From: a virus
Strand: one strand, 5' to 3'
IMG/VR virus record: IMGVR_UViG_3300037421_000285
Span: 1-21,617 of that record
DNA: 21,617 bases
Shown here: piece by piece, positions 2,308 to 16,901 of the stretch
Layout of the letters: every line of letters starts with the position of its first letter
Position numbering within the stretch: position 1 is the stretch's first letter
The notes under the pieces: generated by a model
Databases searched by the model: none
Told to the model about the DNA's origin: nothing
What the model saw: the letters and a program-made list of their open reading frames with translations, nothing else
Made by a program: the position numbers and the translations under genes

Positions 2308-2975
2308 CAGAGTCCCATCGTCCGGCTACCGCCCCACGTGCCGCTGATCTGCCGTGGCCTGTCTACGATCCGGTACTGCACGTCGGACGCGTACGCATCC
2401 CGGTCCTTTTCGTACCGGCCCTGCCAGAACTGGGCCGCTTCGATGTCGTCCTCTGCCGCGAATGCGCGTGCGAGCGCATAGTCAATCAGGAGCTGCGAAT
2501 AGTCCTGGTTGAGCACGGGCACGTCACTGTCCGCGACAAGTGTCGGGGGGCGCTTCATGTAACGCATCAGTAGGGGATCGGAACTGTTTGGTCCCGGATA
2601 GAGCCACAACTGGTTCTGGTAGAGCGTGTAGATCTCCGGAGGTCCAGAGACGAGCGCCGGGGCAGTCAGGTCGAACTGCTGCTGGTCTACGGGGCGCAGG
2701 CGTGTCGCGAGGAGTTCGTACACGACGTCCTGGACGCGCAGGAAATCTTCAGGTAGCGGGTACTTGTATGTGCCTGGGACCATCGCGATCGTCGCTGTTT
2801 CCTGGAACTCAGGTGCCTCGACCTCACGAGCGATCTCCCATTGGGCTTCGTTCACCCACGTCTTTACGCGTTCTCGATTGACCTGTGGCCCGTCGTTGAA
2901 ACCGTAGTTCAGCACCTCGTTGACGATTGCCAAAAATGCGGTCCCAGTGGAAGGGGGGCTTGCGACGAACGTCAT
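2307..2975 (-). CDS. Head-tail adaptor (tail tubular protein A-like)
   Basis: 222 residues. The pattern of an N-terminal helix followed by WVNEAQWEIAREVEAPEF, a strand pair ending YKYPLPEDFLRVQDVVY, then PEIYTLYQNQLWLYPGP and a C-terminal helix pair (YSQLLIDYALARAFAAEDDIE) matches podoviral adaptor/gp11-type proteins, which form a ring between portal and nozzle. A longer start at 3002 exists but overlaps the tailspike gene; the ATG at 2975 is preferred because GGGAG lies 10 bases upstream and the ATG shares one base with the tailspike TAA (TAATG). The downstream propeller gene supports the assignment. Confidence 0.78.
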   Translation of the reverse strand: MTFVASPPSTGTAFLAIVNEVLNYGFNDGPQVNRERVKTWVNEAQWEIAREVEAPEFQETATIAMVPGTYKYPLPEDFLRVQDVVYELLATRLRPVDQQQFDLTAPALVSGPPEIYTLYQNQLWLYPGPNSSDPLLMRYMKRPPTLVADSDVPVLNQDYSQLLIDYALARAFAAEDDIEAAQFWQGRYEKDRDAYASDVQYRIVDRPRQISGTWGGSRTMGL

Positions 2976-4843
2976 TACGCCAATTCTCCCGTGGCCGCCC
3001 AAACATTTTCGTCGCGCTTACGCAGAGTGACGGTCGCGTACTGTTCAAGGGTCTTGAGTTCCTTCGCTGGCGGGAACCACAAAGTAACCCCGGCTGCGGC
3101 TTTGATGACGACTTTGCCAGTACCCTCCTGAAAGACCGTGATCGTCGTCCCGATCGGGAACGGTACGGTCGCGTTGGTGGGAACTTCGATGGTCTTTTCT
3201 TCCGCCGAGTTCATCTCGATAGTGCGACCACCATCGTAAATGTTGAGTACGTAGTTGCCAGCCTGCCCGTTAGGGACAGGCTCGATGCCGACACAGCCTC
3301 GCACCCACACGGCCGTTGGTAGCGTCGATGCGGGTTTGGTCACGTTTTTAGCGATATTGACGCCCCCCAGCAGCAGCGGTTCGCCTTCCATTTTGACTTC
3401 GGCGCAGGAAACGCCCGTGACGACCTTGTAGATGATGCCACCAACCACAGAGATAGCTTTCCCCGTAAAGGTCCCGGTGATCCTGATCCCAACCGATTCG
3501 GCGTTGGCGTTACCGTTGATCGTGTTGTCCGCCAGCATGAGAACGGCATTTCCCGCCGCGGTACCCGTGACTTCGATCCCCGTACCTAGTCCTTCGCTCC
3601 CCTTGATACGAGCGCCGTCCACGATGATATTTGACCAGGAGGTGGCCCCATCGTCCGTGATGACAATTCCCTTTTGCGTCCCGGTCGTCGTGAAGCAGGC
3701 GGTAGCGTCAACATGCACGCTGTTGCAGGATTCTATGAGCAGTTGGGTTTCGGAGCTTTTACCGACCCAGCCGCCCTGAATCTGGAGGACAGAGCACTTA
3801 TAGGCGTGTATACCCACGGGGGGTTGCACGCTCTGCCCCAAGCAATAGACGTTGTTGATCTGGTTGTCGGTCGAGTTGTAGAGGTACAGCTGACGATGGA
3901 CAGCACCATTCAGCTCAAAGTCGTACCACTTTGAATCGTTCGTTTCGTAAAGGTAGAGAGCGTAGTACGGCTTGTTATTAGCCTCGCAGCCAAACTCGAT
4001 AATGGTCTCGCATCCCGAGAAGAAGTAGCCATAGGTCCATTCTTCGGGAGTGCCTTCTTTCGCGGGCGCACTGTTGCAGTTAGTGAGATAAATGATGCTG
4101 CATTTCGTGAGGGAGAATCCTGCCAACCCGTTCCAACCCTGCATTACTACGTCTCTCCACTCGCTGCGGCTCACTTCTAGCGCAGTGATGCCGCCGAGCC
4201 CAGTCGAATAGATATGGCTCAGGTTGATGGATTCGCATTTGTGCAGGTTTATCGTCCAGACCGTAAGTTGTCCGCTCTGTGGCTTGAAACTTATCCCCGT
4301 GATCGAGTTGTGGCTGCCCGTAACGTAGATTGCCTGTTCGGCAACGCCGTTCCCAACGATGATCGTTGTGCCGCCGGGCGTCCACAGATGATCGTTCGCC
4401 CCTCTCAGGTGGACGTACTGCGCGGTGATTGTGAGCGCGGACGTGATGAGATACTGGCCGGCGGGAAAGTAGACCGTACCGCCGCCCGCGCTTTGTGCGG
4501 TGTTAATCGCTGTCTGAATGGCCGCCGTATCGTCTGTGACGCCATCGCCCCGGGCACCAAATTCCTTGACGTTGAGAAATGGGAGGGTGTCGGATGAGAC
4601 GATATCGACCGTCTTGCCTGCCGCACCACTAGGGGCAATGTCGTATCGACCAGGGCTCAACCAGGCAGAAAAAACGCCAGTATCGTTTGTCCTAACGGCC
4701 GTGAGCGCGTCTTCGCCGGTCTCGGACCCATACAGCGTGGGCGACCCCTTGCTGCCAGGGTGCACAGTGATGCTCACTGGAACGGCCGCCACAGGCTTCC
4801 CAGACGGACTGATCACCACATCCGAGTATTGGACCCTAGACAT
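2975..4843 (-). CDS. Tailspike with pectate-lyase-type beta-helix
   Basis: 622 residues. Residues about 1-85 form a small beta-sandwich-like head (YSDVVISPSGKPVAAVPVSI) that may attach the spike to the tail. From about 90 there is the classic pectate_lyase_3 opening: NVKEFGARGDGVTDDTAAIQ, then GGGTVYFPAGQYLIT, followed by about 400 residues of short beta-helix rungs rich in N, G and I/V. The last 120 residues (GRTIEMNSAEEKTIEVPTNA, then FPIGTTITVFQEGTG) match the beta-sandwich ends common in fibre and spike proteins. Such spikes bind and often cut cell-surface polysaccharide; catalytic residues cannot be picked by eye. The ATG overlaps the upstream gene by 8 bases. Confidence 0.85.
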   Translation of the reverse strand: MSRVQYSDVVISPSGKPVAAVPVSITVHPGSKGSPTLYGSETGEDALTAVRTNDTGVFSAWLSPGRYDIAPSGAAGKTVDIVSSDTLPFLNVKEFGARGDGVTDDTAAIQTAINTAQSAGGGTVYFPAGQYLITSALTITAQYVHLRGANDHLWTPGGTTIIVGNGVAEQAIYVTGSHNSITGISFKPQSGQLTVWTINLHKCESINLSHIYSTGLGGITALEVSRSEWRDVVMQGWNGLAGFSLTKCSIIYLTNCNSAPAKEGTPEEWTYGYFFSGCETIIEFGCEANNKPYYALYLYETNDSKWYDFELNGAVHRQLYLYNSTDNQINNVYCLGQSVQPPVGIHAYKCSVLQIQGGWVGKSSETQLLIESCNSVHVDATACFTTTGTQKGIVITDDGATSWSNIIVDGARIKGSEGLGTGIEVTGTAAGNAVLMLADNTINGNANAESVGIRITGTFTGKAISVVGGIIYKVVTGVSCAEVKMEGEPLLLGGVNIAKNVTKPASTLPTAVWVRGCVGIEPVPNGQAGNYVLNIYDGGRTIEMNSAEEKTIEVPTNATVPFPIGTTITVFQEGTGKVVIKAAAGVTLWFPPAKELKTLEQYATVTLRKRDENVWAATGELA

Positions 4844-8755: not shown

Positions 8756-10801
8756 CTAACTGGTCTGTGGTTCTGGCTGGGCTGGAGACTCAGCAGTAGT
8801 TGACGATTCGGACTCTTCTTCCGGTGCTTCCTTCGAGGGTGTCAGTCCGGCTTGCCCCTCGATCTGGCGTTGAATATCGGGCGGCGCGTCCTTGTAGTTC
8901 AGGCTCTCCGCGGGCGTCACTTGGGGTGCTTGTGGTCCCATTGATCGCAATAGCTGGACGCGGTGTTCGCCGACGTGCGCTTCGATGCCTTGCTGCACTT
9001 CGGGCGAGAGCTGCTGGTAGACAGCGGTCTTCTGGAATTCGGTGTGCCCGTCGATGTGGGCCTGCGTGTTGTCGTAACTGTTGATCTGCAAGCGTGCACC
9101 TTGCGCCATTTGCTGGTTCTCACGGTTGACCTGCGCCTCGTCGGCGGTGAGGTCACCGAACAGCTTCTCCAGACCGCCGGCCTCATAGTCGCGGAGAACC
9201 TTGCGCAGGTCCCTCGGGTTGAGCGCTCCTGGACCGGAGTACTGCATGGCGAGGTTCAGTACCTCTTGGATCGCGGCTTGCTTGGCTGCCTTGGAGCGAG
9301 GGAACGCGCTGCCCATCTGCACTTCGGCGTGCGTGTTCTCCTTCAACATCGCTCCCCGGAACAGCATCGTGCTCCACGCCTGGTCCTCGCCGGCGATCAT
9401 GACGACACGCTCGTCCGTCCAGTACTTCGCGACAAGCTCCAGCAGACGGCTGCCGGCGATCCCGAGCGTTTCCTCCATGTCGTAGATCGCGGGCCCCAGT
9501 CGGGTGTCGTCGGCCTCCTGGAGCAGGTTGATCGCGGACGCCGCGGTTACACCTGCCGGTACCTGGGCGGATGAGACCTCGTGTTGGCCTGAAATGTCCT
9601 GCATGGACTGTTCGATGCGTTCTTGCTGTTGCAGGACGTAGGAGGGCATCGAGGGGGGTTGCAGGTAGGACGGGATGGCGTTGGGAACGGTGTCGTCGTA
9701 GTCGATGCGCTCACCGGGGACACCCTCGTACTCGACGTTCGCTTGCTTCGCTGCGAGGAGGGCGGGGTTACCGGTGCGTTGGGCGCTGTCGGTGATCTGC
9801 GAGCGGATCTTGTTCAGCTCGGCTTGTGGCTCGCGCAGCTGCTCGACTATGCTGGTGGGCCAGAACCGGCCGGGCACGTCGATGCCCTTGAACATCACGT
9901 ACGGCAGGTCGCGGTACGGGTTGTCTTCCTCCAACAGGATTTTGTCTTTCGCCCACACTGCACGTCGGCCGTTGGGATACTTGCTGGATGGCTTGCACCA
10001 GTACTCGCTGACCTTCACTCCACGACCACTACCCGATCCGGTGGTGAATAGCTTCCCCTCGGCGGTACCGGCTGCGACGTCCGTGTCGGGTTGGAGTTCG
10101 ACGTCGAAGTGTGCCTTGACCCACTCGGGGGTCTTCACGGCAACTTGGATGCAGTACTCGGCGTCCTCGATCACTCGGGCGACAGGGTCGAAGAACATTT
10201 CGAATGGGCTGGCCGTTTCGATGTTCACGTCTCCCGTCGCGATCGTCTTCGACTGGATGCCTTTGGGTGGCCCGTTCTCGCCGAAGTCGCTGGTGCGCAT
10301 CGGTGCGCCCGTCTGCGAATGCAGGATCGGATTGTTGTCGGGGTCGACGGCGATCGTGACCTGTTGGCCCTTAGCGCTGTCCCAGAACACCTTCCAGAAC
10401 CCGGCGCCCGTCACACGCGACCACAACAGGGCCTCCATGAGCTGGGTGCGCATGTGCAGGTGACGCCACAGGTAGCCGAGGATCTGTTCGCCGACCCTGC
10501 TGGCCTCTAGGTCCGCGTCTTCTGCGGTGACGGGAACGACTTGCCAGGCGGGCTTCTGCTTGGTCATCTTCGCCAGCTCGGTACGGACGATCCCGATGAT
10601 CCGGTTGTCCGTCAACGTGACACGCCACGGCTCAAGGAGTGGTCGGTCGAGCCGGCCACCGTTCCAGAACACCCATTGCTTGCCCATGTAGTACGAGACG
10701 TTTAGGTACCACACGGGCTCGAAACCGCCCTTGGCGCTCTTGGCTTGCCTGAGGAGCTTCTCCAGCTCCCCGACACCACTGTCCTTGGGTTCAGTTGCCA
10801 T
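8756..10801 (-). CDS. Portal protein (podovirus type)
   Basis: 681 residues, in the range of P22-like portals. The N-terminal region has the typical opening of a Trp/Tyr-rich helix (FEPVWYLNVSYYMGKQWVFW), then RVTLTDNRIIGIVRTELAKM and KQKPAWQVVPVT. The centre has the wing/clip-type sequence PFEMFFDPVARVIEDAEYCI and RDLPYVMFKGIDVPGRFWPT, followed by the stem helices LREPQAELNKIRSQITDSAQ. The C-terminal 130 residues are helical and Gln/Glu-rich, perhaps a short barrel. It forms the dodecameric DNA gate at one capsid vertex. TAGGAG is 6 bases before the ATG. The start overlaps the membrane-protein gene by 11 bases. Confidence 0.9.
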   Translation of the reverse strand: MATEPKDSGVGELEKLLRQAKSAKGGFEPVWYLNVSYYMGKQWVFWNGGRLDRPLLEPWRVTLTDNRIIGIVRTELAKMTKQKPAWQVVPVTAEDADLEASRVGEQILGYLWRHLHMRTQLMEALLWSRVTGAGFWKVFWDSAKGQQVTIAVDPDNNPILHSQTGAPMRTSDFGENGPPKGIQSKTIATGDVNIETASPFEMFFDPVARVIEDAEYCIQVAVKTPEWVKAHFDVELQPDTDVAAGTAEGKLFTTGSGSGRGVKVSEYWCKPSSKYPNGRRAVWAKDKILLEEDNPYRDLPYVMFKGIDVPGRFWPTSIVEQLREPQAELNKIRSQITDSAQRTGNPALLAAKQANVEYEGVPGERIDYDDTVPNAIPSYLQPPSMPSYVLQQQERIEQSMQDISGQHEVSSAQVPAGVTAASAINLLQEADDTRLGPAIYDMEETLGIAGSRLLELVAKYWTDERVVMIAGEDQAWSTMLFRGAMLKENTHAEVQMGSAFPRSKAAKQAAIQEVLNLAMQYSGPGALNPRDLRKVLRDYEAGGLEKLFGDLTADEAQVNRENQQMAQGARLQINSYDNTQAHIDGHTEFQKTAVYQQLSPEVQQGIEAHVGEHRVQLLRSMGPQAPQVTPAESLNYKDAPPDIQRQIEGQAGLTPSKEAPEEESESSTTAESPAQPEPQTS

Positions 10802-11057
10802 CCGAGGCTCCTACGTGGACACCCTCTGGAACGATCTGACCGACATACGCCAGCTCCGCGCTGTCCCTGGGAGGCTCAATCGGTTCGCGCTCTACGGGCG
10901 CGACCTGTGCGCGTTCGGGGTGCTGGATACGATCGAGAAGCGACCGGCGCTCCGCAGCGGTCGCGGCGAGGAGCCGTTCGAACTGGCGAGCATCGCGCTC
11001 GCGCAGGACAGTGAGCAGGATGACGATGCCCAGGAGGGCCAGCGTGACGTACAGCAT
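10791..11057 (-). CDS. Small single-pass membrane protein, unknown
   Basis: 88 residues. Residues 2-18 (LYVTLALLGIVILLTVL) form one clear transmembrane helix at the very N-terminus, followed by a charged helical region (RERDARQFERLLAATAAERR) that could be a coiled coil, then a Pro/Glu-rich tail. AAAGGGG lies about 4 bases before the ATG. It overlaps the portal start by 11 bases. Without an adjacent endolysin or holin I do not call it a spanin or holin. It could anchor head assembly to the membrane or be an accessory protein; both are guesses. Confidence 0.7.
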   Translation of the reverse strand: MLYVTLALLGIVILLTVLRERDARQFERLLAATAAERRSLLDRIQHPERAQVAPVEREPIEPPRDSAELAYVGQIVPEGVHVGASDGN

Positions 11058-11094: not shown

Positions 11095-12942
11095 TCAAAC
11101 GCCCCCGCCGCCCTGGTACCCAGCTTCGATCCCGAGCCCTTCCGGGATGTAGTAGCCAGCAGGCGGACGCGGGGTCTTGCCTTCCGTCAATTCAAGTAGC
11201 GGATTCCAGACCGTCGTCGTCCAGCTAGGCGTCCAACTTACGACGTGGTGTGTTTGGGCTTCCGCCGATTTGTCGCCTGTGGCAGTGTAATCGATCGTGC
11301 ATGAGCTTTCGCAGCCACCGGCACCGAAGTCGCTCCCGCTTTTCGTCCCGACGGCGATGTTGTGGAGCACGCTGTATTCCCTGCCTTCAAGACAGTCGTA
11401 GCTATTGCCCGTCGGTTCGCCCACGAAGCCATGAAGCAGTACGCCGTTTTGGCTCCCCACGACCGTGTAGTGCTGGAAGGTGAGGCCCTTTATCGGGCAG
11501 AGATTCACTGCCTGGCTGCCCTGATTGTTGATGGAGAGGTCGTTTTCCATCGTGACGCCCGGATAGGTCGCCGCTGCGCCGAGCGATGCCTCTAGCAGCA
11601 CGGACGGGCTACCGCCCGTTTCCCACATGATGTCGTTAGAGAAGTCCACGGTGCTCGAACTGCCGAAGATCTGCAAGACGTTCTGGTGCACCAGCGTGTC
11701 CGTTTCGGACTTGGGTGGTCCGAGGAACGTGTTGTGGTCTACCGTCAGGTTTTCCCCGCTCGATATCTGAACGTAATGGTTGGGGATGTTCGGACCGCAC
11801 ACGTTGTAGGAGAACGTGATGTGCTTCTGTTTGCCGTTGCCCGCCGTGAAGCATTGGCCGATAAACGAGCATGCTTTGTTTTCCGGCGGGCACGGGCCAA
11901 GATTGCTGAACGTGTCATGTTCGACGGTTGTGTATTCCTGGACGCGGCCTTCGGCTGTCGCCGACTTCGTGTAGACGCCTTCGCGCGGGCCCGCGCCGAT
12001 CATCTCGCCCGTCGCCGTCGAAGTCGCAGGATGTTCGAGGACGATTTCGTTTAGCGGGAAGCCGTGTATTTCGCTGATCTTCGTCAGGTTCGTGGCGGTA
12101 GTGGAGATGTTGCTGGCGTAGACTGCCTCTCCCGTCGCCATCCGTTCGAGTGCGCTGGTGGGTACTTCTGTCACGATTGTCGAACCGCTAGTCGTGCTTC
12201 CGGTGGTGTTGACACCAAAAGTGTCGTACCGCACCGTGATATGCCCGACGTTGCCGAGGGGGGGTTCTGAGACTTCGAAGGTCCCCGTGAAGTTGAAGCC
12301 TTCGGTCGTCAACCGGCTTACGCCGCCACTGCCATTTTTGAGGGTCGCCCCTTTGATGTTGACCTTCGCGCCGGCAGCGGGCTTGAGAGTCACGGTGGAG
12401 GCAGGGTTGATGCCGCTGAGTTCGAGGAGCGGCCAGTTGCCTTCAGCCAAGCAGACCGTATCGCCCGCTTTCGCCGCTTTCAGGGCCGTGTTGACGGCCG
12501 CAGATGTTGTTTCGCTGACAGTGGTCGTGCAGGCCACTCCTTCGATCACGGTCGCCGTGGCCGCAGATGTAGCGCTCGCCGAGCCGCCCGCATTGATCGC
12601 GGTGACAACCATCCGCAGCTGGTGACCAACATCGCTGTGCGCGAGCAGGTAAGCATTGGACGTAGCACCAGCGATATTTGAACACGATTCGCCCGACGTG
12701 TTGCAGTCACGCCACTGGTAGGAGTATTCAGTGGCGAGTTCCCACGTCCCCGTCGTCGTTTTGAGTTCTTGGCCTTCCGTCGCCGTACCGCTGATCGCCG
12801 GCAGCACGGTATTCACGGGGACGGTGCCTTTGATCTGGCCGGAGCCGTGAGCACCAAGGGCCACCGAGCACCCCAACACAATCACCCAACAGAGCATCGC
12901 AAACACGAGCCAGGGGACGAGTCGGTCCCGGAACGGCGCCAT
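11095..12942 (-). CDS. Exported Ig-like plus beta-helix protein, spike-like
   Basis: 615 residues from the ATG at 12942, which has AAAGGG 6 bases upstream and shares one base with the upstream TGA; a longer start at 12987 is less likely. Residues about 10-31 are a hydrophobic signal segment with a near-lipobox VLGC (Cys25). Residues about 41-133 are an Ig-like domain (EYSYQWRDCNTSGESCSNI, then SDVGHQLRMVVTAINAGG) of the type repeated in Thermoleophilia surface proteins. From about 140 a parallel beta-helix runs to near the end (AVNTALKAAKAGDTVCLAEG, then HNTFLG-type rungs), ending in GYQGGGGV. Possible roles are a virion spike or a cell-surface protein made during infection. The Ig domain looks borrowed from a host gene. 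Confidence 0.78.
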   Translation of the reverse strand: MAPFRDRLVPWLVFAMLCWVIVLGCSVALGAHGSGQIKGTVPVNTVLPAISGTATEGQELKTTTGTWELATEYSYQWRDCNTSGESCSNIAGATSNAYLLAHSDVGHQLRMVVTAINAGGSASATSAATATVIEGVACTTTVSETTSAAVNTALKAAKAGDTVCLAEGNWPLLELSGINPASTVTLKPAAGAKVNIKGATLKNGSGGVSRLTTEGFNFTGTFEVSEPPLGNVGHITVRYDTFGVNTTGSTTSGSTIVTEVPTSALERMATGEAVYASNISTTATNLTKISEIHGFPLNEIVLEHPATSTATGEMIGAGPREGVYTKSATAEGRVQEYTTVEHDTFSNLGPCPPENKACSFIGQCFTAGNGKQKHITFSYNVCGPNIPNHYVQISSGENLTVDHNTFLGPPKSETDTLVHQNVLQIFGSSSTVDFSNDIMWETGGSPSVLLEASLGAAATYPGVTMENDLSINNQGSQAVNLCPIKGLTFQHYTVVGSQNGVLLHGFVGEPTGNSYDCLEGREYSVLHNIAVGTKSGSDFGAGGCESSCTIDYTATGDKSAEAQTHHVVSWTPSWTTTVWNPLLELTEGKTPRPPAGYYIPEGLGIEAGYQGGGGV

Positions 12943-14306
12943 CACGCACCCTTTGAGAACGTGCAGCCATCGAGGTCGAACACCCACGTCACGGCAGATG
13001 TGCCGTTATTCAGCACTTCCCCGTTGGTCTTGATGGTGAGGCTCTGGCCTTCCTTGGCGCTGTTGAGGTTTGGCGCCCAGCACTCTTTCTTGACCGTCGG
13101 CCGGGCAGACGTGGGGAGTGTCAGCACGAGTTTATTCGCCACGAGTTCCGCTTTGATCTTCAGGGCACCTGCCAGGTAGACACGTCCAGTGCCCCCTACC
13201 GCATACTTGGCTTCTCCGTATTCCCCGCCCTGCTGTTCGACGTTCGTGCCGAGGGATTCGACCGCGGCGTATGAAAGTTCCGTTTCGCCGCCACCCGAAC
13301 CGGCAGCCCATTCGGTATCGAAGTTCGTGTTCGATTTCTTCTTGAGGTACTGGCCGGTTGTGCCGCCCGTCGGGACGCCTTCCCCGTTAGCGCCTTTAGC
13401 GCCTTCGGGACCCGTGGGGCCTGTTGGACCAGTTTTGCCTTCTTTGCCTTCCTGGCCAGCCAATCCGAGGATTTCGCCGCCGGCTTTGTTGACGACGACG
13501 CTCTCGAACGACTTAGAGCTTTTAGTCGTAGGGAACGTCGGTTCAGAGCCGACCCAACTTAGGCTTTCCACGCTCCACGTCCATCCGCCCGTGCTGTTCT
13601 CCGTCAGCACGAGGCTGACTTCTGTCGGTCGGCTCGGCGCTTTCGTGATTTTGAATGTGACGTTTTTCTTTAGCGTCGCCGTGAACGTTGACCCTTCTTC
13701 AAGATTCAGCGTCACCGTACCTTCCACTTCGCCAAGCGCCTTTTCCTTCGCGAGCGGCACCGATTTCGGCAGCTCAGCTTCTGGCACCACTCCACCAGAC
13801 GTGAGTTCTGGAACCCCGCTAGCGACGCCCTTCTGCGTGAGGGGAATGGCAAGCGCTTCAGTTTCCACCATCGCACCCATCACAAACGCTGTTGTCGCTA
13901 GTTGCGTCGTGTTCGTTTTCGCCGCCGCAGTCGGTCCTAGTGGCACTCCCGTGAAGCTCAAGTTCGAGGCGAGCTGCGCACTTCCAACCGCTTCACTCGC
14001 GATCTTGGAAGTAGTCACGGCGCCGGTTTTCAGCGCCGCTGAACCGATCGCTTCCGCCCCCACCTTCGCGGACCCCACGGCACCCGTAGCGAGCTGCGCT
14101 TCGGTTATCACTTCCGAACCGAGATTCGCGGTGAGGATCGTCGGCACTTGCGCGGCCGTCAGCTTTGAGCTGCCGTTGGTCGTCGCGACACCATTCGGGG
14201 CACCCTTTTGACTCAGGGGGATCGCGTTCACGAGAGCGGCCGGCGCCGGCGACGTACAGGCCACGTATCCCACCAATAGGGCGACGGAGAAGAGTAGCCT
14301 GCGCAT
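12942..14306 (-). CDS. Collagen-containing tail-fibre-like protein with signal peptide
   Basis: 454 residues. Residues 1-24 look like an export signal (MRRLLFSVALLVGYVACTSP): Arg-Arg, a hydrophobic core, and either Cys17 as a weak lipobox or an APA|A cleavage site. Residues about 65-112 are fibre-stalk repeats (TGAVGSAKVGAEAIGSAALK). Residues 121-141 carry the fibre motif GPTAAAKTNTTQLATTAFV. Residues about 284-310 are collagen-like Gly-X-Y triplets, followed by TGQYLKKKSNTNFDTEWA, also typical of phage fibres. The C-terminal 110 residues are beta-rich with two Cys (409 and 448). It probably trimerises. The ATG lies immediately after the TAA of the preceding gene. Confidence 0.82.
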   Translation of the reverse strand: MRRLLFSVALLVGYVACTSPAPAALVNAIPLSQKGAPNGVATTNGSSKLTAAQVPTILTANLGSEVITEAQLATGAVGSAKVGAEAIGSAALKTGAVTTSKIASEAVGSAQLASNLSFTGVPLGPTAAAKTNTTQLATTAFVMGAMVETEALAIPLTQKGVASGVPELTSGGVVPEAELPKSVPLAKEKALGEVEGTVTLNLEEGSTFTATLKKNVTFKITKAPSRPTEVSLVLTENSTGGWTWSVESLSWVGSEPTFPTTKSSKSFESVVVNKAGGEILGLAGQEGKEGKTGPTGPTGPEGAKGANGEGVPTGGTTGQYLKKKSNTNFDTEWAAGSGGGETELSYAAVESLGTNVEQQGGEYGEAKYAVGGTGRVYLAGALKIKAELVANKLVLTLPTSARPTVKKECWAPNLNSAKEGQSLTIKTNGEVLNNGTSAVTWVFDLDGCTFSKGA

Positions 14307-14657
14307 TTAGAAGACCTCCGGATTGTTGGCGATAGCGATGACCGTGACGCTTCGGTAGAAGGTCGCTTCGATGGAGAGCGCGACCGCCGCTTCTTCTTTG
14401 TTGATCTGCTCGCCAGCAGCGGGCGTCAACGTGACTATGTTGGCACCCGAGTTGGGTGTTACCTTGATAACCAGCGTCTTGCCGCTGTTGCCCGTCGCGG
14501 GCGGTAGGTTCACTTTGAAAGAGCCACCGGATGCGTCAGCGGTGTATGCCTTCCCCCATTCGAGATTCTTTTCCCCCGAGATCGGTTCGCCCGTGAGACC
14601 CCCGCTTCCCCCGCTGCCGCTGGCTTTGCCTCCGCCGCTGATCTCGATCTCGCTCAT
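14307..14657 (-). CDS. Small beta-rich fibre-accessory protein
   Basis: 116 residues. After a Gly/Ser-rich flexible start (ISGGGKASGSGGSGG) comes one beta domain: AYTADASGGSFKVNLPPATG, then SGKTLVIKVTPNSGANIVTL and TPAAGEQIN. This pattern is common in phage fibre and spike heads, where it forms a small beta-sandwich. No signal peptide. Start ATG overlaps the upstream TGA as ATGA. With the adjacent fibre gene it probably forms part of one appendage (inference from order and fold). Confidence 0.65.
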   Translation of the reverse strand: MSEIEISGGGKASGSGGSGGLTGEPISGEKNLEWGKAYTADASGGSFKVNLPPATGNSGKTLVIKVTPNSGANIVTLTPAAGEQINKEEAAVALSIEATFYRSVTVIAIANNPEVF

Positions 14658-14974
14658 GCGATCGCCATCATGAAGGTGACGCCGTCACCGTTGATGGTTG
14701 AGTCGATCCAGATCGCACCGGGGTCAGCAATGTCGATCGCGACCGATTCGTTCGCGGCGAGCGCGATACCTCGTCGTGTTGGTGCACCGTGTATTCCGGG
14801 TGCAGCTTTCACGTTTTTGTCGCCGACGACGATTGTGCCTTCGTTCGTACCGAGGGCTTGCACGATCACGCTATGGGCCTCCCCGCCCGATTTCGATTCG
14901 AGCTGTACTGGCGTGCCGGCCGCGGCGACTGTGACGAGGGCTGGGGTGCTGAGTTTGACTGCCCGCATGCTCAT
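14654..14974 (-). CDS. Small beta-rich virion-type protein, unknown
   Basis: 106 residues, low in charge and rich in Val, Ala and Gly: MSMRAVKLSTPALVTVAAAG, then VIVQALGTNEGTIVVGDKNV and IDIADPGAIWIDSTINGDG. Alternating hydrophobic strands suggest a single beta-sandwich, such as a head- or fibre-decorating subunit. Two starts are plausible: GTG at 14977 (GTGA overlap with the upstream stop) or ATG at 14974 (TGATG); the ATG is chosen. No catalytic motif. Confidence 0.68.
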   Translation of the reverse strand: MSMRAVKLSTPALVTVAAAGTPVQLESKSGGEAHSVIVQALGTNEGTIVVGDKNVKAAPGIHGAPTRRGIALAANESVAIDIADPGAIWIDSTINGDGVTFMMAIA

Positions 14975-15375
14975 CACGCCACCGCCTTTACTGTCGCCTT
15001 GGACGGCCGGCCACGAGGCCGTGACACCTTCACGGGTGTCGGGCGCTCCGCCAACGCAGCCTCCATCCGTTCCGCGTACGACACCGCTTTGTCAGCACGC
15101 AGCTTCTCCTCGTCGAGCCGGCGCTCGAGGATCGCGATACGCTCAACCGGCTCCGCGTCGTCGATCATCCCGACGAGCAGCGCACCTGACCGCAGACACG
15201 TCTCGCAGAGGATGAGATCGTCCATCGAGACCGCAATAGCCTCATCAGCACCGTATCCGCGATCGCATGCGGCGTCGAAGTCAACGTGGCGCTTCTCGCG
15301 GTCCTGGCAGCCACACGCAGAGCAGTACATGGGTAGCTCTGCTGGGCGAATATCGTTCGCTAGCTTCACACTCAT
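14974..15375 (-). CDS. Zinc-finger, coiled-coil and AT-hook-like protein
   Basis: 133 residues. Cys18, Cys21 and Cys23 (YCSACGC) with Cys57 and Cys60 (LCETC) could bind one zinc ion. Residues about 76-110 form a charged coiled coil (EPVERIAILERRLDEEKLRA). Residues 118-126 (SRPRGRPSK) match an AT-hook core R-G-R-P, known to grip the DNA minor groove. The gene shares one base with the terminase stop (TGATG). A DNA-contacting helper of packaging is a reasonable guess; I do not recognise a named family. Confidence 0.72.
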   Translation of the reverse strand: MSVKLANDIRPAELPMYCSACGCQDREKRHVDFDAACDRGYGADEAIAVSMDDLILCETCLRSGALLVGMIDDAEPVERIAILERRLDEEKLRADKAVSYAERMEAALAERPTPVKVSRPRGRPSKATVKAVA

Positions 15376-16901
15376 CAGGCGAAAATCCCTCCCATTGGAG
15401 TCTTAGGTATCCCTCGACGTTTACGACCCTGCTGGTCGCGTCGAGCAGCACGTTCGAGTGGTGGTAGCCACTCCTCGGCGTCCACGAGTTCTGTCGCGTA
15501 CGGCCGTGACATGACGACGTAGCGGAGCGCATCGAGGAGATGGTCGTCCTTCTTGACGGGCTTCTCCTTCGGGTCGCTCTCAGTTCTTGCCGGGGACGAC
15601 CACCGGTACTTGCGGAACTGGTCGATCGTGCCCGTACAGTTCGCGGTCACGAACAGCCGACGGGCCTGCAGGCGCTCCTTCACGCGGTTGATGCCGGCAG
15701 TGACTGAGTTCTGGCCGAGGATCGTGACGATCCCGTGATCCATGAACTCCATCTGGTCCGACCGCCCCGTCTGATGCACAACATTCCGGGCTGACGGATC
15801 GATCACATACCACGCAGGCTGCAACGGGATCATCGCCTCGCCAGACTGACGCGCCCACTTCCGGTTGATGAGATGGATCGCGTCAGCGACCTGCTTGACG
15901 GTGTGGCCTTGCAGGGCGAGTTCGTCGAACGCGACCATCGTGTCGTCCGGCGTCAAATAGCACCACAACACTGCAGCCATATGGCGCATCCCGGGATCGA
16001 TACCGACATACACGCGAGCGTCCGCCGGAACGCCCTCTGACGGGTCGAGCTCGGGGACGACATGCTCGTTGCGGGAGAACTCGTCGTAGATCATCCCCGC
16101 GAAGTGCACGAACCGCCCAGACTTGCGAGCCTGACGCTCCTCCTCACTCAGACCGGCTAGCGCACGCTGCTTCGTCCGCTCATCCAAGTGCGGGTTGTCG
16201 TCCATGTCCACCAGAACGACAGTCGCCTCATGCAACTGAGCCTTCGTCCACGGCTCCCAAATCTCGTCGTACATCCACGACATTCCATGCAGCGGCGTCA
16301 TCGTGAACAGCTCGTCGCCGCCATAGTCGATCAGCCGCATCGTGCTCTCGCGACGGATCGGCGCTGGCGGCTCCTCGTCGTAGTGGACGCGGTGGAGTGC
16401 CGCGCCCCCGAACTTGTCGAGATCCTGCTCGAACGTCAAGAAATCCATCCACGACCCGTTCTTGAACCCCAACCGCCGGCGAGCCTTGTCGTACGCCTTG
16501 TCGAACCCGCCACCCGCCAACTGATCCTTCGGCGCCCATTCCCGCAGCTTCTGGAAGATGACACCCTCCAACGTGCTCGTGAAGTCCGGCACGATGATCC
16601 GGCAGAAAAACGGCGGCTCCCACTTCTTGAAGCCCAACAAGTGCTCGGGCAGACAGTCCCGATCCACCGCCTGGATCAGGTCGTCGCAGATCCCCGCCGT
16701 CGTCTTCCCCGACCGGTTACCACCCAGAAACGCCTTCAGCGGCTCGTGAGAGGCGTGGAACACGACCTGCTTCGCATGCGGGCTATAACCCAACAGCGGA
16801 TTCGCACGCAGCGCCGCCTCATACGTCGCGAGCAAGTCTCGAGCCCGCTCCTGCTGCTCCACCGGCAAACGATCAATCGCACTCCGGTCGATACGCAGCA
16901 C
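15375..16901 (-). CDS. terL: Terminase large subunit
   Basis: 508 residues. The ATPase half has Walker A GGNRSGKT at residues 60-67 and Walker B-like RVHYDEE with Asp175-Glu176. The coupling motif follows at about 200 (FTMTPLHGMSWMYDE). The RNase-H-like nuclease half shows YVGIDPG with Asp302, a second acidic site near YVIDPS (Asp368), and KKDDHLLDALRYV (Asp452/453, Asp457). This is the motor that pumps and cuts phage DNA. The start is GTG, with GAGGAGG five bases upstream. No small subunit is adjacent; the 543-base spacer upstream may carry packaging or control signals. Confidence 0.93.
   Translation of the reverse strand: MLRIDRSAIDRLPVEQQERARDLLATYEAALRANPLLGYSPHAKQVVFHASHEPLKAFLGGNRSGKTTAGICDDLIQAVDRDCLPEHLLGFKKWEPPFFCRIIVPDFTSTLEGVIFQKLREWAPKDQLAGGGFDKAYDKARRRLGFKNGSWMDFLTFEQDLDKFGGAALHRVHYDEEPPAPIRRESTMRLIDYGGDELFTMTPLHGMSWMYDEIWEPWTKAQLHEATVVLVDMDDNPHLDERTKQRALAGLSEEERQARKSGRFVHFAGMIYDEFSRNEHVVPELDPSEGVPADARVYVGIDPGMRHMAAVLWCYLTPDDTMVAFDELALQGHTVKQVADAIHLINRKWARQSGEAMIPLQPAWYVIDPSARNVVHQTGRSDQMEFMDHGIVTILGQNSVTAGINRVKERLQARRLFVTANCTGTIDQFRKYRWSSPARTESDPKEKPVKKDDHLLDALRYVVMSRPYATELVDAEEWLPPLERAARRDQQGRKRRGIPKTPMGGIFA

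Follow-up and report, generated by a model that had tools for sequence, protein, structure and literature searches.

Late phage proteins with an N-terminal Sec signal or anchor are known among the endolysins, for instance Lys44 of fOg44 and the signal-anchor-release endolysins (PMC6116005). Export also occurs in superinfection exclusion, as described for gp41 of a Cutibacterium phage (PMC11480721); Llp and Ltp are small exported lipoproteins of this kind. Collagen triplets are found in tail fibres represented in PHROG and in prophage collagen-like proteins (PMC3368898), and pectate-lyase-like folds are found in tailspikes. Furthermore, active glycoside hydrolases, such as the chitosanase V-Csn and a GH5 enzyme, are encoded by soil viruses (PMC9485262). 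A limited search of open-access text found no precedent for an exported tail fibre.

We analysed a window that comprises a whole linear IMG/VR record of 21.6 kb (21,617 nt). It derives from a podovirus-like phage known from metagenome sequence alone, with genes mostly on the minus strand. Two of its proteins, coll454 and helix615, combine traits of the systems above. coll454 resembles collagen-containing tail fibres in its collagen triplets and repeat modules, and its C-terminal region is shared with the fibre of a related phage (L008). Unlike those fibres, it has an export-type N-terminus in place of a virion-side N-terminus. helix615 would resemble pectate-lyase-like tailspikes, such as the window's own, in a probable beta-helix and a probable glycan target, but it differs from them in its export-type N-terminus and Ig-like domain, and it gave no Pect-lyase match. 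Both proteins would share with the Sec-exported endolysins a late timing and a predicted N-terminal Sec signal or anchor. However, no murein-hydrolase domain was found in either, both are much larger, and their genes lie outside a lysis cassette. Like Llp, Ltp and gp41, they are phage-encoded with an export-type N-terminus, and helix615 has a possible loose lipobox; in contrast, they are at least four times larger, their lipobox is not conserved, they lie in a late operon and no family match was obtained. Size, lipobox and families thus all set them apart from small exported lipoproteins with a known exclusion domain. With the soil viral glycoside hydrolases the locus shares a putative polysaccharide-active cargo in a metagenome phage, but helix615 lacks an enzyme family match and lies among packaging genes with fibres, and its activity is putative.

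Genes between TerL and portal

The gene order in the window is TerL, a Cys-rich 133-aa protein, s107, s116, coll454, helix615, TM88 and portal, followed by a scaffold-like protein, the major capsid protein, a pectate-lyase-like tailspike, gp4-/gp10-like proteins and a small fibre. The names scaffold, capsid and gp4 were assigned from order, size and comparison with relatives rather than from family matches. As originally predicted, coll454 and helix615 are two adjacent large ORFs between TerL and a P22-like portal gene. The features are as follows.

15375-16901, minus strand: TerL
14654..14977, minus strand: s107, small beta protein, recurring at the same place in relatives
14307..14657, minus strand: s116, small beta protein with an N-terminus like that of the L008 fibre, ending directly before coll454
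14314..14319, minus strand: Shine-Dalgarno site GGAGGT, within the s116 end and 7 nt upstream of the coll454 ATG
12942..14306, minus strand: coll454, tail-fibre-like, bearing collagen triplets; its N-terminus is of export type (MRRLLFSVALLVGYVACTSPAPA, followed by A); from ORF and PHROG fibre families
14238..14306, minus strand: signal-like segment of coll454, residues 1-23, with a possible signal peptidase I site between APA and A
13380..13460, minus strand: collagen triplets of coll454, residues 283-309
11095..12942, minus strand: helix615, with an export-type N-terminus, an Ig-like domain and beta-helix-like repeats; from ORF, start context and L008 homologue
12850..12942, minus strand: residues 1-31 of helix615, a signal-like or anchor segment with Cys25 in a loose lipobox
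12574..12795, minus strand: residues 50-123 of helix615, an Ig-like domain that L008 lacks
11098..12537, minus strand: probable beta-helix-like region of helix615, residues 136-615, with a repeated motif
10791..11057, minus strand: TM88, small protein whose gene precedes that of the portal in many relatives
8756-10801, minus strand: portal, P22-like (Pfam E 5e-27)
2975..4843, minus strand: ordinary signal-less, pectate-lyase-like tailspike in a separate slot (Pfam Pect-lyase_RHGA_epim E 1e-23; PHROG tail spike)

Genes between TerL and portal are contiguous or overlapping, as in one operon, with the exception of a 37-nt gap after helix615. The cassette contained no promoter match in a scan for sigma-70-type promoters and no coding-strand terminator-like site. 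An abutting operon lacking a promoter or terminator match of its own suggests that the cassette is expressed late, together with the virion genes.

Several smaller features of this region were also recorded. TM88 carries a conserved LLxRIQxPE motif and adjoins or lies near the portal gene (L009-L015, L022-L029, L074, L083 and others); in many relatives, though not in all, its N-terminus holds a membrane segment. A search against PHROGs gave no family match. The Cys-rich protein (14974-15375), directly after TerL, appears zinc-ribbon-like by eye (CSACGCQ...CETC) and has an AT-hook-like C-terminus. It shows 42-81% identity in close relatives and has no firm family match. The closest cultured TerLs, from Arthrobacter and Microbacterium phages, are about 30% identical.

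N-termini and domains of coll454 and helix615

The N-terminal sequences are MRRLLFSVALLVGYVACTSPAPAALVNAIPLSQKGAPNGVA for coll454 and MAPFRDRLVPWLVFAMLCWVIVLGCSVALGAHG for helix615. Ranked by N-terminal hydrophobicity among 257 non-redundant ORFs of at least 180 aa, taken from the window plus its TerL relatives (some antisense ORFs included), helix615 was first and coll454 second. Both have the positively charged n-region and hydrophobic core expected of a Sec signal, and coll454 shows the typical layout of n-, h- and c-regions. The signal-type N-termini of the original prediction were confirmed at the sequence level. The Shine-Dalgarno site before the coll454 ATG indicates that its hydrophobic segment is translated. 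For helix615, the start is most likely the ATG at 12942 rather than the GTG at 12987, because this ATG overlaps the coll454 stop (TGATG) and is preceded, 6 nt upstream, by the ribosome-binding site AAAGGG.

A candidate signal peptidase I site of coll454 fits by eye, helix615 has several weak candidates, and the helix615 homologue of L008 has none that is clear; the hydrophobic stretch of helix615 is of considerable length and might act as an anchor that stays uncleaved. The lipobox-like sites that had been proposed did not hold up well. C17 of coll454, with Tyr at -3, fails both PROSITE PS51257 and the stricter G+LPP pattern, C25 of helix615 (IVLGC) passes PS51257 and fails G+LPP, and the L008 protein fails both. 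Hence, a lipoprotein reading was rejected for coll454 and is weak for helix615, and these N-termini appear likelier to be Sec signals that are cleaved, or anchors that are not, than to be lipidated.

From about residue 27 onward, coll454 consists of modules known in tail fibres. Many minor-tail and tail-fibre families of PHROG were matched (best E 5e-11), and the collagen triplets gave a weak Pfam Collagen match (E 0.04), so that its description as a collagen-bearing fibre protein stands. In other contigs its LSQKGAPNGVA module is internal to fibre-like proteins, well away from their N-termini. Tail-fibre identity, in terms of repeat modules and family matches, applies to coll454 and does not extend to helix615, which matched no PHROG tail family and no enzyme family.

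Of the domains proposed for helix615, the Ig-like stretch was recovered at a score below the cut-off (Pfam IG_AIR9 E 0.002), and comparable stretches are seen in proteins of phages, Azospirillum and Streptomyces. A beta-helix is suggested by repetition, not by a family or structure match: a T[VF]xHNxF-like motif, picked after reading the sequence, occurs in six copies where 0.18 are expected by shuffling. Neither helix615 nor its L008 homologue gave a pectate-lyase-type match in Pfam or NCBIfam. A PDB sequence search returned chance-level or low-complexity matches only, and structure models of helix615 and coll454 (mean pLDDT 36 and 30, respectively), built from two-sequence alignments, were unusable. 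All 10 Cys residues of the repeat region are kept in L008, an even count as expected for disulfides. Cys density as proof of secretion was rejected, since the set also contains Cys-rich proteins that lack a signal, one of them the window's tailspike with 11 Cys.

The interval in related phages

The relative that shares the trait, L008, has a TerL 81% and a capsid protein 94% identical to those of the window. It encodes the sole relative of helix615 that was found, with 68% identity over the repeat region and dN 0.25 and dS 1.17, which indicate purifying selection. The start of this protein (MRRRHLIPFALIASVLTLTALVKG) differs from that of helix615, yet is again charged and hydrophobic, and the Ig domain is absent. 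The L008 fibre is homologous to the C-terminal half of coll454, is signal-less and starts with MSPHAEIEN. Scans of genome contigs, each with only two short patterns, confirmed neither cellular homologues of the helix615 repeat region nor prophages by TerL.

In relatives, the interval between TerL and portal ranges from 229 bp to 6.8 kb, and it holds recurring s107- and TM88-like proteins beside changing large proteins. It is a recurrent cargo site of this lineage, where the position of the cassette is ordinary; the isolated insertion of the original prediction thus fell away. Large cargo proteins include LamG/GDSL-type (L013) and pectate-lyase-like (L014) proteins, fibres and others, all lacking a start signal, and cargo proteins of the site other than coll454 and helix615 match virion families. 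The L013 protein (12227-14044; 605 aa) contains a LamG lectin domain (Pfam E 1e-22), and it matches GDSL esterases weakly. A 638-aa cargo protein in L009 (10299-12215) gave no Pfam or NCBIfam match; its C-terminal half appears glycoside-hydrolase-like by eye (WDVVNEASYE).

Cargo recurs at the site, whereas export-type starts are the exception there. Among 30 cargo ORFs of at least 200 aa (some redundant, at least one antisense), three passed our chosen criterion of a hydrophobic, charged start, namely coll454, helix615 and the L008 homologue of helix615. A search for further trait-bearing phages by portal and capsid protein again returned L008 alone; other hits among the portal-matched loci look antisense. 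Moreover, the window and L008 each have a signal-less tailspike elsewhere, before gp4. No tailspike was found at that position in L009, L011, L013, L015 and L022, and L010 has an unrelated ORF there. The coincidence of a separate spike with exported-type cargo, seen in two phages only, is no more than suggestive.

The group probably includes a provirus, because L009 (TerL 81%) encodes a tyrosine integrase along with a serine recombinase and is bordered by host-like sequence containing tRNAs. In the closest relative with a long contig (record G002; L009, L101, L102), tRNA-Ala genes and queC were observed at the flank.

Export and its alternatives

We tentatively favour, at somewhat less than even confidence, an account in which a late-made, exported or anchored, glycan-facing beta-helix protein is carried as cargo together with a fibre that has gained a signal. 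The interval would house quickly changing cargo proteins that face surfaces or glycans. Both in L008 and in the window, the beta-helix protein would be made late, alongside the virion proteins, and its N-terminal hydrophobic segment would route it through the host Sec system out of the cytoplasm; it would then be set free by cleavage or stay attached through an anchor that is not cut. Outside, it would most likely bind or cut host surface polysaccharide, which may help progeny to spread or may lower re-adsorption to the cell and to debris. In the window, coll454 beside it would have gained a signal too and would take the same route. Since each of the two phages already carries a regular tailspike at another place, the cargo protein does not have to be the spike.

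Export is supported by the hydrophobicity ranks, the ribosome-binding sites, the L008 start, the cargo types at the site and, weakly, the 10 conserved Cys. It is weakened by the long possible anchor in helix615, the unclear cleavage site in L008, the missing enzyme family of helix615, the standard fibre character of coll454 with its signal-less L008 homologue, and the restriction of the trait to two phages. Taken separately, helix615 is predicted to be exported with fair probability, and for coll454 the prediction is evenly poised. A location in the host envelope or beyond it, as suggested, is plausible, because the export-type N-termini are real sequence features and the hydrophobic start of helix615 is kept in a relative; the lipidation suggested with it is poorly supported.

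The main rival to export is virion incorporation, which we consider unlikely but a serious contender. Both proteins would be fibres or spikes whose uncleaved hydrophobic N-termini pack them into the particle or insert into a membrane at infection. This fits the tail-fibre modules of coll454, the operon shared with packaging and portal genes, and the virion families of other cargo proteins. The particle does not need such N-termini, however, since, apart from the L008 homologue of helix615, the other cargo ORFs of at least 200 aa in relatives lack them; it already has another spike, and the signal layout of coll454 is typical. Another possibility is that the segments are unused, with the true starts downstream or with s116 and coll454 being a single fibre gene broken by a stop. 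The two are indeed in the same frame with a single TAA (14307-14309) between them, directly followed by the coll454 ATG, and a GTG at V26 could serve as the start of an ordinary fibre. This reading is the least probable of those weighed here: GGAGGT precedes the coll454 ATG and no comparable site precedes V26, which disfavours such an artefact, read-through would place a membrane-like segment inside a fibre, and L008 likewise keeps a hydrophobic start in its helix615 homologue.

Superinfection exclusion by outside-anchored proteins that mask the receptor or bind incoming virion parts, in the manner of Llp and Ltp, had also been proposed. The export-type N-termini, the loose lipobox of helix615, the existence of small exported exclusion proteins (PMC11480721) and the temperate nature of the closest complete relative agree with it, but no positive evidence emerged. 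It is very unlikely given the late operon position shared with packaging and portal genes, a size far beyond that of known exclusion proteins, and a lipobox that is not kept in L008. Comparably improbable is an auxiliary gene for the host or lysogen, whose product, secreted and either adhesive or polysaccharide-degrading, would benefit the cell rather than the infection, a role of the kind put forward for glycoside hydrolases of soil viruses. Related Ig-like stretches in bacterial surface or secreted proteins, the active soil viral glycoside hydrolases (PMC9485262) and the integrase-bearing, integrated member of the lineage would suit such a role. Conversely, the cassette is tightly coupled to virion genes with no promoter of its own, and the two-pattern scan gave no cellular homologue of the repeat region.

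A variant of the favoured export account is rather doubtful. Here, a fibre and a beta-helix spike would have exchanged their virion-side ends for Sec signals, and receptor-binding proteins would thereby be secreted or displayed by infected cells; the exported fibre modules would act as soluble adhesins, receptor maskers or depolymerases. If true, receptor-binding modules would be used twice, in the virion and on or around the infected cell, via a swapped N-terminus. Phages would thus have a simple, testable way of altering the surface of their host at a late stage of infection, and not every fibre-like gene in metagenomes could be assumed to encode a virion part.
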